A DNA stretch of 64,000 bases from a bacterium (GTDB lineage Bacteria > Zixibacteria > MSB-5A5 > WJJR01): assembly GCA_021813505.1 (NCBI GenBank), contig JAKAKI010000079.1:1-64000 (forward strand), in the 5' to 3' direction. Both the position numbers and the translations under genes were made by a program. The stretch's first letter is position 1. Each line of letters starts with the position of its first letter. Positions 49,938-59,714 of the stretch are shown piece after piece. The notes under the pieces are model-generated. The model saw only the letters and a list, made by a program, of their open reading frames with translations, did no database searches and was not told the origin of the DNA.

Positions 49938-49982
49938 GCGTCCACTGCGTCCACTACGTCCACTTCGTCCACTAGGTCCACA
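49938..49982. repeat. 9-bp minisatellite abutting the oxidase subunit II stop codon
   Basis: GCGTCCACT, GCGTCCACT, ACGTCCACT, TCGTCCACT and AGGTCCACA follow one another. The stop codon of the membrane subunit gene (49972-49974) lies inside the fourth-fifth unit, so copy-number change would alter the protein's last residues or its terminator region. Confidence 0.75.
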
Positions 49983-50979
49983 TCGCCCGCTGCGCGTCCC
50001 GCACCACTCGCAACAGCCAGACAAGAGTCGCAATTCCCAAAAGCAGCACTACGACAAACATCGCAAACGCACCCCACTGCGGACGAACAGCCACGGTTGC
50101 AGAATCATAATCCCCGGCGAGCATGATCAACCGGTACGATTCGCGCTGAATCACCAGCCCTGTCAGCGCGGCCACAGTAGCTAATGCCGCCGGCCACCGC
50201 GCCAGTCCGATCCGGCGAAACAGTCCGATGATCCCGGCCGCCAGCGACAGAAATCCGGCGCCGAGAATCAGAATCCATCCCGCCATTCCCCAGTCCCCGA
50301 TGGCGAATTGGGATGATGACGCCCAGCCCAGCGCCAGCACACCGCCGGCAATCGACGCGATGGCGGCCCCCGTCGGTGTCTTGCGGTCATTCCGCCATGA
50401 ATGCCCCAGCCACATCACCCACGCCCCCGAGGCGATGGCCGCCGCGCCTCCATAGCCGACCAGCCTCTGTCCCACCTTCGAGTGGCGCACCGCCTGCGTC
50501 CATGGCGCTGACGACAGCGATTGGAGATAATTCCACGAATAAGTAAACCCGATGGCGATCACACAAAGAATCGTCAGAAGAACAAACACCTTGCCCGCAC
50601 CTGACGGCCCGCCGCTCTTCTCCCAGCGCCAGCGCCACAGGTAGAGCGAGTAGAAGCCAACCAGCAGATACCCGACAATCGCCAGCCACGGAAACCCGAT
50701 CGAGATCGACGACGAGTAGAAGTACTTGCCGTAGAGAACCTGGACAAACAGGAGCGGCGCGACGCCGGCGGTGATCGTCGTTGAGAACGCCAGCACCCCA
50801 GCCCGATGCAACGGTTCGACCGCGTAGAGGTCCTTCTTTCCCCACTCCGCTCCGACCCGCGCCCACAACGCCGCAACCAGAAGACCCAGAAATAGCATGT
50901 GGACAACGAATGTCAGTCCAAAGAGTCCGAGCGCCAGTGCCGGCGGCACGGGGAGTGCCATCAAATCATTGGGGTTCAT
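49972..50979 (-). CDS. Membrane subunit of a cytochrome bd-like complex
   Basis: 335 residues with eight to nine hydrophobic helices. It is not a recognisable CydB, but starts MALPVPPALALGLFGLTFVVHMLFLGLL, which resembles the CydA-like N-terminal helix pattern with an early His. Several conserved-looking aromatic and His residues lie between helices (EPLHRAGVLAF, QVLYGKYFYSSSISIGFPWLAIVGYLL). It overlaps the CydA-like gene by 4 bp (ATGA), so it is its obligate partner, probably the second membrane subunit in place of CydB. Confidence 0.65.
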   Translation of the reverse strand: MNPNDLMALPVPPALALGLFGLTFVVHMLFLGLLVAALWARVGAEWGKKDLYAVEPLHRAGVLAFSTTITAGVAPLLFVQVLYGKYFYSSSISIGFPWLAIVGYLLVGFYSLYLWRWRWEKSGGPSGAGKVFVLLTILCVIAIGFTYSWNYLQSLSSAPWTQAVRHSKVGQRLVGYGGAAAIASGAWVMWLGHSWRNDRKTPTGAAIASIAGGVLALGWASSSQFAIGDWGMAGWILILGAGFLSLAAGIIGLFRRIGLARWPAALATVAALTGLVIQRESYRLIMLAGDYDSATVAVRPQWGAFAMFVVVLLLGIATLVWLLRVVRDAQRAMWT

Positions 50980-52310
50980 TGCCCACCCCCTTTGGATTCA
51001 GACTTCGCGGCCCCGGCCTGCCAATTCGCCGTCCGCAAAGTCGACAGATACGCGACCAGATCGTTCAGGTCGGACTCGCTTCCCGCGAATGGCGGCATGA
51101 ATCCCTTCAGCCGGTTTAATCGCCGCGTGTTGAACTTGATCATCTCCGCATCCCACGTGGCAATCAACGGGCGAATCGCATTGTAACCGTCCACCGCGTG
51201 GCACCGCTGGCACTCCACCTGGTAAATGACTCTCCCTCGCTCTTCCGGCGTCGCCGCCAGATGATCGAATTCGTGCGCCACCACCGGCTTGGCCTCGAAG
51301 AATCCTGACTGATTTATCTTGTCCACCTCGTCCACTTTGAGTCCATTCGCATACATGTAATCATAGATAATGAACGGTTTGCGGATCCCCTCACGCACAT
51401 ACTCCATCGATGCCGTCGCCACAAAGGCAATCGCCGCCAGAAGCAGCGCGGTCTCCAGATTGATGTAACGCCGATTCTTGATCAGTCCGAAATAGGCGTA
51501 CAATCCCACCAGCGTCGACGCGAGGATCCCAAATCCGAAAAACATCGTCATCGCCACCGCGCCGCCGAGCGCCAATTGGCTGGCCTTGTGGGGAGCGACG
51601 GCGAAATACCACACCGACAACGGAATCATCAGCGCCAGCGGCACCAGAAAGACGGAACCGGCCTCGATGATGTGACGTCCCTTCTCGCGATCCAATGAGC
51701 GATCCAGATTCGCCACCACCGCCACGAAGATCCCCGCCAGTGCCAGCGCCGAAACTGTCCGCAAGAACAACGATGGCCAGAAAGTCGGATTGAGCCATGC
51801 GTCCCAGAACGATCCCGTGGCCAGCCAGTCCCCCGGAGTCAGCATGAACGTGAGAATCCCGTTGATGACGAACAACGACATCCACGCTGAGACCGCGTAC
51901 ACGATTCCGACCCGCACGTGCGTTTTCGGCGACATCCGGTCCCAGTAGAAATAGTAGACGTACCCCGACGTGATCTCGACAATGAAAAACACCCACTCGG
52001 TCGCCCACGCCCACACGAACTGGCGGATCAGAACCGTGATCGCTTCCGGCGAAGCAATCGCAATCACAAACCAGATCCCGACTCCGGTCACCGCACCGGC
52101 GACAAACGAGAACAGAATCAGGAACCGGGAGTACTTGTGCAGGAAATCGCCCAGAACCCGGTCGTTCGTTCGGATCGCCCGCGCCTCGAGCCACGGAATC
52201 GCGATGCCGCCGCCCACCGCGAAGTGCGCGATCAGCACATGCACGATCGCAATCACCGCCACCAGCGACGACAGCCCCATCGGCCCCGGATCAAAAATCG
52301 GAAAGTTCAT
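50976..52310 (-). CDS. Cytochrome bd-like oxidase subunit I with fused c-type heme domain
   Basis: 444 residues. Eight to nine helices in a CydA-like order: SLVAVIAIVHVLIAHFAVGGGIAIPWLEAR (His in TM1), YSRFLILFSFVAGAVTGVGIWF and FVWAWATEWVFFIVEITSGYVYYFYWDRM, the last resembling the E-containing third helix of CydA. After residue 350 there is a periplasmic haem c domain, CQRCH at 367-371, with a distal Met candidate in GFMPPFAG. This matches bd-superfamily branches with c-type haem (OR-C-like in recent classifications). It lacks the Q loop, so cytochrome c rather than quinol may be the donor. This is inference. Confidence 0.75.
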   Translation of the reverse strand: MNFPIFDPGPMGLSSLVAVIAIVHVLIAHFAVGGGIAIPWLEARAIRTNDRVLGDFLHKYSRFLILFSFVAGAVTGVGIWFVIAIASPEAITVLIRQFVWAWATEWVFFIVEITSGYVYYFYWDRMSPKTHVRVGIVYAVSAWMSLFVINGILTFMLTPGDWLATGSFWDAWLNPTFWPSLFLRTVSALALAGIFVAVVANLDRSLDREKGRHIIEAGSVFLVPLALMIPLSVWYFAVAPHKASQLALGGAVAMTMFFGFGILASTLVGLYAYFGLIKNRRYINLETALLLAAIAFVATASMEYVREGIRKPFIIYDYMYANGLKVDEVDKINQSGFFEAKPVVAHEFDHLAATPEERGRVIYQVECQRCHAVDGYNAIRPLIATWDAEMIKFNTRRLNRLKGFMPPFAGSESDLNDLVAYLSTLRTANWQAGAAKSESKGGGQ

Positions 52311-52767: not shown

Positions 52768-53958
52768 ATGACCAGATACATCGGCAATCCCGAATTCCAG
52801 CACGGCGAAATCCCCGCGGTCGGCATTCTCCTGGCCAACATGGGCACCCCCGACGCACCGACAACCTCCGCGCTGCGCCGTTACCTTGGAGAATTCCTCT
52901 GGGACCCGCGCGTCGTCGAGCTTCCCCGCCCGCTGTGGTGGCTGATCCTCAATGGCATCATCCTCAACACCCGCCCGCGCCACTCAGCCGCGGCATACCA
53001 GAGAGTTTGGACGAAAGACGGATCGCCGCTTCTGATCTACACACGGCGCCAGGCCGCCGCGTTGGAATCCAGTCTGCGGTCCCGGATCGGAAACCCCTTG
53101 CATATCGCTGTCGGGATGCGTTACGGCAACCCTTCGATTCGTTCAGCGTTGGATGAACTGCGCTCCAAGGGCTGCCGCCGGCTCCTGGTTCTCCCGATGT
53201 ATCCCCAGTACGCCGGCCCCACGACCGCCTCAACCTTCGATGCCGTCTTCGAGGTTCTCGAAAGCTGGCGCTGGGTGCCGGAAGTACGCACGATCGCGAG
53301 TTATCACGACGCCCCGAATTACATCAACGCGCTCGCCAATTCAATCCGAGAAGTCTGGAACAACAAGCTGACGGATCCACGCGCTACCGACGAATCGCAC
53401 ATCGGTAGGCCGGACACTCCTGTCCGGCCTTCTTCCGAAGCTCCGCAGAAACTCCTCTTCTCATTTCACGGTATCCCCAAAGCGACGCTCCTCGCCGGCG
53501 ACCCGTATCACTGCCAGTGCCACAAGACAGCCAGGCTGGTGGCTGAGTCGCTCCAGTTGCCAGAGGATCGCTGGATGGTGGCATTCCAATCGCGCTTCGG
53601 TCGCGCCGAATGGCTGCAGCCGTACACCGACGTGACACTCCGCCAGTGGGGCAAAGACGGCGTCAAATCAGTCGACGTGGTCTGCCCCGGTTTCTCCTCC
53701 GACTGCCTGGAGACCATCGAGGAAATCGGTGTTGAGAACCGCGATAACTTCCTGCATAGTGGCGGCCAGCAATTCCGCTACATCCCCGCCCTCAACGACC
53801 GCCCCGACCACATCGACACCCTCACGAAACTCGCTGAGCGCCATCTCCAGGGCTGGACCGTTCCCAAATCCGAATGGAACGAATCCGCGGCAAAGCAGGC
53901 GTCCGACGCGTCTCGCCAACGCGCGGACCAGATGAAGCATCGGGTGTACGGCGGGTGA
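52768..53958 (+). CDS. hemH: Ferrochelatase with an in-frame repeat-derived insertion
   Basis: 396 residues. Inserts iron into protoporphyrin IX (or coproporphyrin III). Signatures: AVGILLANMGTPDAP, PMYPQYAGPTTASTFDAV, LLFSFHGIPKATLLAGDPYHCQC (catalytic His in FSFHG) and VDVVCPGFSSDCLETIEEI (catalytic Glu). ATG 52768 follows GGAGGAG. Between REVWNNK and QKLLFSFHG an extra stretch (DPRATDESHIGRPDTPVRPSSEAP, about 210-233) is encoded by GGCCGGACACTCCTGTCCGGCC, a palindrome of a repeat family found elsewhere in the window, without breaking the frame. It precedes the active-site strand and may form a surface loop. Confidence 0.94.
   Translation: MTRYIGNPEFQHGEIPAVGILLANMGTPDAPTTSALRRYLGEFLWDPRVVELPRPLWWLILNGIILNTRPRHSAAAYQRVWTKDGSPLLIYTRRQAAALESSLRSRIGNPLHIAVGMRYGNPSIRSALDELRSKGCRRLLVLPMYPQYAGPTTASTFDAVFEVLESWRWVPEVRTIASYHDAPNYINALANSIREVWNNKLTDPRATDESHIGRPDTPVRPSSEAPQKLLFSFHGIPKATLLAGDPYHCQCHKTARLVAESLQLPEDRWMVAFQSRFGRAEWLQPYTDVTLRQWGKDGVKSVDVVCPGFSSDCLETIEEIGVENRDNFLHSGGQQFRYIPALNDRPDHIDTLTKLAERHLQGWTVPKSEWNESAAKQASDASRQRADQMKHRVYGG
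53406..53432. repeat. GGCCGGAC palindrome inside hemH
   Basis: TAGGCCGGACACTCCTGTCCGGCCT: an 8-9 bp stem with a 7-base loop, same family as 38814-38842 and the half-copy at 52397. It encodes GRPDTPVRP in the hemH frame. Confidence 0.8.
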
Positions 53959-58490: not shown

Positions 58491-59714
58491 CTACCGGTCA
58501 ACCTCGCCCAGCACGATATCATACGACGCCACCGTCGCCACGACGTCGGCGATCAGCATCGGCTTCTTCGCATGCTGGACAACCGCATTGAGCGATGAGA
58601 TTGCGGTAAAACACGGAGAACGCGCCTTGCAGCGCAGAGGAACATCAGAACCATCGGAAATGACGTAGTACCCAAGTTCACCGCGCGGTGATTCGGTACG
58701 GGCGTAGACATCGCCTTTCGGTGGACGCGCCTTGCGGGGGATCGTCTCGTGAACATCCCCCTCTGGCAGCCCCTCGAGTGCCTGCCGGCAGATCTTCACC
58801 GATTCGGCCATCTCTTCAATCCGCACCCAGTATCGATCCCAGCACGATCCGATCGGCCCGAAGCGGCCTTTGCCCAACGCCACGTTCCATTTGAAACGGT
58901 CGTAGATCGAATACGGATCATCACGGCGCAAATCCCAATCGACGCCCGAGCCGCGCAGATTCGGACCGGTCACTCCATACGAGATCGCGACCTCCGGCGG
59001 CAGAATGCCGACATTCGCGGTTCGCGTAATGAAGATGTGGTTGTAACTCAGAAGGTCATTGAAATCATTGATCTTCGGCTCGAAGTAGTCGAGGAACTCG
59101 CGCGTCTTCGCGACCCAGCCCTCGGGCAAGTCGCGCGCCAGACCGCCAACCCAAATGTAGTTGTAAAGCAGCCGGGCGCCGGTCAGCCACTCGAACAAAT
59201 CGAGAATCATCTCCCGGTCACGAAACGCCCAGAGAAACGGCGTGAACGCACCCATATCAAGGCCGTACGTTCCAAACGCCACAAGGTGGCTGGCAATCCG
59301 CTGCAGTTCGCAGATGATCACGCGGATGTACTCGACGCGCTCGGGAACCTTGATCCCCATCAGCCGTTCGACCGCCACCGCGAAACTCATGTTCTGGCTG
59401 AGTCCTGCCAGATAGTCCATCCGGTCGGTGTACGGCACAATCCCGGCGTACGGAAGATTCTCCGCGTGCTTCTCAAAACAGCGATGCAGGTACCCGATGT
59501 GCGGACGGATGCTCAGCACCACCTCGCCGTCCATGGTCAATTCCAGCCGCAACACGCCGTGCGTCGACGGATGCTGCGGGCCCATGTTGACCTTGTAGGT
59601 TTCGGTGAGATACGCACCCGAGTATTTCTCGGGCGGGGCGGGGATATTGATCAGAAGATCGTCGTCCTCGATCTCGTACCGTGGCGGAGCCTGTAGGGCA
59701 AAGACATCGGGCAT
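58491..59714 (-). CDS. nuoD: NADH-quinone oxidoreductase subunit D
   Basis: 407-residue 49-kDa subunit of complex I, at the quinone site on the cytoplasmic arm. NMGPQHPSTHGVLRL, RPHIGYLHRCFEK and GLDMGAFTPFLWAFRDREMI are family signatures; PSTHG and the later VVATVASYDIVLGEVDR end are intact. The Ni-binding cysteines of hydrogenases are absent, as expected. ATG 59714. It is the last nuo gene here and lies 29 bp after a lipoprotein gene inserted in the operon. Confidence 0.96.
   Translation of the reverse strand: MPDVFALQAPPRYEIEDDDLLINIPAPPEKYSGAYLTETYKVNMGPQHPSTHGVLRLELTMDGEVVLSIRPHIGYLHRCFEKHAENLPYAGIVPYTDRMDYLAGLSQNMSFAVAVERLMGIKVPERVEYIRVIICELQRIASHLVAFGTYGLDMGAFTPFLWAFRDREMILDLFEWLTGARLLYNYIWVGGLARDLPEGWVAKTREFLDYFEPKINDFNDLLSYNHIFITRTANVGILPPEVAISYGVTGPNLRGSGVDWDLRRDDPYSIYDRFKWNVALGKGRFGPIGSCWDRYWVRIEEMAESVKICRQALEGLPEGDVHETIPRKARPPKGDVYARTESPRGELGYYVISDGSDVPLRCKARSPCFTAISSLNAVVQHAKKPMLIADVVATVASYDIVLGEVDR

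Follow-up and report, generated by a model that had tools for sequence, protein, structure and literature searches.

Which kind of enzyme is encoded by a CydA-like gene that carries its own haem c motif and is paired with a gene unlike cydB, and what would feed it electrons? The question arises from a 64,000-nucleotide stretch of a Zixibacteria contig (JAKAKI010000079.1, hereafter the window), where the initial annotation, made from the sequence alone, had described a bd-like oxidase with a fused haem c and a non-CydB partner. Both open reading frames were found at the positions given there, on the reverse strand and with the 4-bp overlap it reported. The features are as follows (evidence in brackets):

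49972..50979 (-), partner subunit, CydA paralogue without haem c, not CydB, 335 aa (profile comparison, AlphaFold model)
50976..50979 (-), 4-bp ATGA overlap of the CydA-c and partner genes (sequence)
50976..52310 (-), CydA-like catalytic subunit with C-terminal cytochrome c (CydA-c), 444 aa (Pfam, alignments, AlphaFold model)
51045..51242 (-), coding region of the cytochrome c domain, PF13442, about residues 357-422 (Pfam)

The pair has no further operon genes, with a convergent DinB-like gene downstream and a divergent ferrochelatase gene upstream (window 52768-53958, +; PF00762, E 2e-115); haem supply is a possible role for the latter. A gene for a Complex I 49 kDa-type subunit (window 58491-59714, -; PF00346, E 6e-90) lies about 6 kb from the oxidase. 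The ATGA overlap probably couples translation of the two oxidase genes. This is not a chance arrangement of reading frames, since CydA-c has at least 513 relatives in public genomes and the partner gene is near CydA-c in 75 of the 80 loci sampled (in four of the five exceptions the contig ends within the locus).

A CydA-like protein with a fused haem c

Pfam matched residues 17-223 of CydA-c to PF01654 (Cyt_bd_oxida_I, E 4.2e-16) and residues 357-422 to PF13442 (cytochrome c, E 1e-07), in agreement with the CQRCH haem c motif first noted at residues 367-371. Across an alignment of 21 relatives, C367, C370, H371 and the haem-c methionine M405 are invariant, as is P406. The clade profile aligns with E. 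coli CydA, and a profile-profile comparison with the superfamily gave 97.8%. The AlphaFold model of CydA-c (pLDDT 77.7, without haem) matches CydA chains of solved structures with E-values of about 1e-6. Single-sequence searches of the PDB with CydA-c and with the partner returned nothing useful, and neither single-sequence nor profile searches there found a solved structure of a close CydA-c member. CydA-c is a member of the cytochrome bd superfamily, and the clustering outside CydA that the initial annotation had weighed against its own reading was not seen by profile or by fold.

We then compared residues among 99 clade members, 12 quinol oxidases (qOR) and three Nitrospirae OR-N-like sequences, with E. 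coli CydA numbering as the reference. H24, E105, E112, E307 and R310 of CydA-c correspond to H19, E99, E107, E445 and R448 and are kept in all 99 clade members, as is P312. Both active-site haem ligands are therefore present (H24 and E307), including the b595/d axial ligands whose absence had been the other initial concern. The equivalents of the b558 ligands H186 and M393 are absent from all 99 sequences in this alignment, and so are those of K252 and E257 in the Q loop. Only about 118 residues separate TM5 from the E445 motif, versus 187-254 in quinol oxidases, which bears out the first impression that no Q loop is visible. Three positions are invariant in the clade and not in quinol oxidases: R184 (adjoining the H186 position), E303 (at the W441 position) and R306. 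On these residues, the haem c appears to take the place of the lost third haem, b558, rather than being an addition.

The CydA-c model has eight long helices, TM1-TM8, followed by the cytochrome c domain. Canonical CydA has a ninth helix; TM9 is missing here and the haem c domain comes directly after TM8. The haem c is predicted to lie on the periplasmic side: with the N-terminus taken as outside, as it is in the E. coli CydA structure, and eight helices, the chain would exit TM8 in the periplasm. The K/R-rich loops of CydA-c (about 44-60, 122-133, 202-208 and 279-285) fall on the cytoplasmic side of this predicted topology.

The partner subunit and the spread of the pair

No Pfam or NCBIfam model matched the partner above the cut-off. 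A profile built from 83 partners matched the clade's CydA-c at 98.4% (E 9e-15), quinol-oxidase CydA at 95.5% (E 1.4e-8) and CydB at 1.9%, in a comparison at whose sensitivity CydA and CydB of qOR do not match each other either. For the partner's AlphaFold model (pLDDT 87), the best PDB matches were bd oxidase subunits, of both kinds and with weak E-values. CydB was ruled out as its identity by Pfam, the PDB profile search and the profile comparison, which exclude a close CydB relation only. The second gene had been said not to look like CydB, and indeed no CydB model detects it; the comparison refines that remark, as the partner is a CydA paralogue (CydA') rather than an unrelated protein. H27 and R172 are present in 83/83 partners, and Q80, R279 and R283 are also conserved. 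At the position equivalent to E445, most partners have H, D, E or Q (H, D or E in 71/83), which makes an intact O2 site in the partner unlikely. The partner may hold a haem.

The 80 sampled loci come from more than fifteen phyla, judged by record title. In a tree of the CydA superfamily, qOR formed one clade (support 100), OR-N another (100), and the window's protein a third with 99 others (98), all supports being SH-aLRT values from a quick method without bootstrap. CydA-c thus stands outside qOR and OR-N in a broad separate clade, within a tree whose deep order is made unsure by long branches (L023, L088, L017 and OR-N) and whose CydA-c core rows include two identical pairs (L011/L090 and L010/L075) and one nearly identical pair (L013/L093). 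Clade members come from Planctomycetota, Omnitrophota, Acidobacteriota, Armatimonadota, Verrucomicrobiota, Bacteroidota, Ignavibacteriota, Geobacteraceae and others. With support 90, the tree joins the window's family to Planctomycetota and Omnitrophota and sets it apart from the majority of other Zixibacteria, a pattern suggestive of lateral transfer. Among 133 genomes of the window's phylum, each tends to have either a canonical CydA or the weakly matching CydA-c kind, and only a minority have both.

The number of fused CxxCH motifs per CydA-c varies: one in fifty loci, two in twenty-one, three to four in six and eight in two. The eight-motif proteins (L105:8001-10652 and L109:4981-7635, from a Bacteroidales MAG and a CSSED10-310 MAG) are about 884 aa long with the partner directly upstream, and appear to be an extended, octahaem version of this oxidase. 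Two other loci (L065:8001-10597 and L066:6698-9296) carry two different tandem CydA-c genes followed by one partner, and the two copies are placed apart in the tree. A divergent CydA with one haem c (L024:1480-2745 and L025:1474-2733) keeps the H186 equivalent and has Leu at E107; it branches outside the main clade, and no partner gene was seen alongside. A Nitrospirae CydA-c (L055:8001-9278) has no adjacent partner though the contig continues, and the same genome holds three OR-N-like genes.

Gene linkage and the electron donor

The partner gene is directly downstream of CydA-c in 63/80 loci, directly upstream in 2/80 and after a tandem second CydA-c in 2/80. In the remaining paired loci (8/80) it lies upstream, separated from CydA-c by genes for Rieske and cytochrome b, giving the order partner-Rieske-cytochrome b-CydA-c (L080, 5244-9440; L087, L098, L099, L101, L104, L106 and L108). 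Pfam confirmed the Rieske and cytochrome b identities in representative loci. The hosts of these eight are Acidobacteriota, Planctomycetota, Verrucomicrobiota and Melainabacteria, and the gene lists of four of the eight included no separate cytochrome c1. In a Zixibacteria relative (G047), where the locus lies at a contig edge, the cytochrome b gene immediately precedes CydA-c.

The initial annotation had proposed a search for a donor cytochrome c. Genes for Rieske, cytochrome b or a soluble cytochrome c are all absent from the window's own operon; bc-type genes turned up in the loci of nine relatives. This linkage is support for a bc-linked donor in the subgroup with Rieske/cytochrome b loci at least; for the window's own subgroup, such a donor would be an extrapolation from relatives.

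The window's genome (3.9 Mb, 97% complete) has one CydA-family gene, and CydB (PF02322) was not found in it. It also encodes two haem-copper oxidase catalytic subunits, so the CydA-c enzyme need not be the main oxidase. Three Rieske/cytochrome b clusters are present, with multihaem cytochromes nearby, and could supply electrons to the oxidase. A search of the genome for ResB, a marker of haem c maturation, found none, which is no evidence against haem c, and a search for CydD gave only ABC transporters below the cut-off.

Proposed reaction and known families

We consider it likely that the two genes encode a heterodimeric O2 reductase of the cytochrome bd superfamily, of OR-C type and fed by a cytochrome c or a bc complex. 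The bases for this reading are homology, the conserved ligands, the loss of the b558 ligands and Q loop, the identity of the partner, and cytochrome b linkage in nine relatives. Electrons from a periplasmic cytochrome c, or straight from a cytochrome bc-type complex, would enter the haem c of the C-terminal domain and move on to a pair of high-spin haems with H24 and E307 as ligands, the site at which O2 would be reduced to water. Cytoplasmic protons would arrive via E105 and E112, giving charge separation without pumping, as judged from canonical bd oxidases, and the haem c would substitute for both haem b558 and the quinol site. O2 is presumably the substrate and cytochrome c or the bc complex presumably the donor, and the active-site haem would be of d or b type. 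More tentatively, the system may form a III-IV type assembly, in which the Rieske protein of a c1-less bc complex passes electrons directly to the haem c of CydA-c and the degenerate CydA partner may hold a haem.

Quinol is the electron source of the bd oxidases characterised so far, which thereby skip complex III, and the partner carries invariant polar residues (H27, Q80, R172 and R279). CydA-c/CydA' might thus still be a quinol oxidase with a new quinol site, for example in CydA', its haem c serving only for relay or regulation. We regard this as unlikely, since the known quinol-site residues, Q loop and b558 ligands are missing in 99/99 and nine relatives adjoin bc-type genes that a quinol oxidase does not need. 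Even less probable is a haem-containing electron-transfer membrane protein with a bd fold that does not reduce O2. The literature searched holds no activity for the clade, and the sampled OR-N, which lack the E445 equivalent, indicate that this fold allows departures from the canonical site; in this clade, however, all O2-site ligands and proton-path residues are invariant.

A doubtful but more plausible alternative is that the enzyme reduces O2 mainly to remove O2, H2O2 or NO rather than in energy-conserving respiration. The two haem-copper oxidases in the same genome would fit such a role, as would the several family hosts from mainly anaerobic groups (Geobacteraceae, Desulfuromonas). Against it, neither glutamate of the proton path varies, and the Rieske/cytochrome b operons point to a respiratory chain.

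The preferred reading, a cytochrome c- or bc-fed reductase, can be set beside known systems. The OR-C family, with a fused cytochrome c, was reportedly proposed by Murali, Gennis and Hemp in 2021. CydA-c has the features said to define it: it belongs to the CydA superfamily without being part of its quinol-oxidising family, lacks a quinol site, and carries cytochrome c at its C-terminus. We found no difference from OR-C in a comparison by description, and on that indirect basis the window's clade matches the published family. The initial remark that bd branches with a cytochrome c domain had been proposed from genomics was right. qOR, OR-C and OR-N are the three named families of the superfamily (PMC13189123, PMC10839748), and HMMs for OR-C are in use (PMC11707229).

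Canonical CydAB (qOR; E. coli CydA, 6rko, 5doq) shares the fold and the H19/E99/E107/E445/R448 equivalents. Unlike it, CydA-c lacks the Q loop, the b558 ligands, TM9 and a CydB partner, and carries haem c. In OR-N CydAA' of Nitrospira and Nitrospinota, two CydA paralogues have been proposed to pair, with cytochrome c as the proposed donor (PMC10839748). The CydA-c system resembles OR-N in having two CydA paralogues and no quinol-site residues. In contrast to CydA-c, the three OR-N sampled, whose assignment used host, length and residues only, retain equivalents of H186 and M393 and have none of E445. They are about 580-650 aa long and contain no CxxCH, and the two clades are separate in the tree. 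A catalytic subunit-like sequence with a cytochrome c domain has been noted in cultured Thermoanaerobaculum aquaticum (PMC5900883, Table 2 note c), the same domain combination by description. No characterised cytochrome c-fused bd oxidase was found in the literature searched, and CydA-c/CydA' is probably a further member of the already named, apparently biochemically uncharacterised OR-C kind.

Annotation by PF01654 alone would label CydA-c a quinol oxidase. If a widespread branch of the superfamily is fed by cytochrome c or a bc complex, the inference of respiratory chains from genomes would change, and the conserved loss of b558 provides a direct test of the haems required for O2 reduction.
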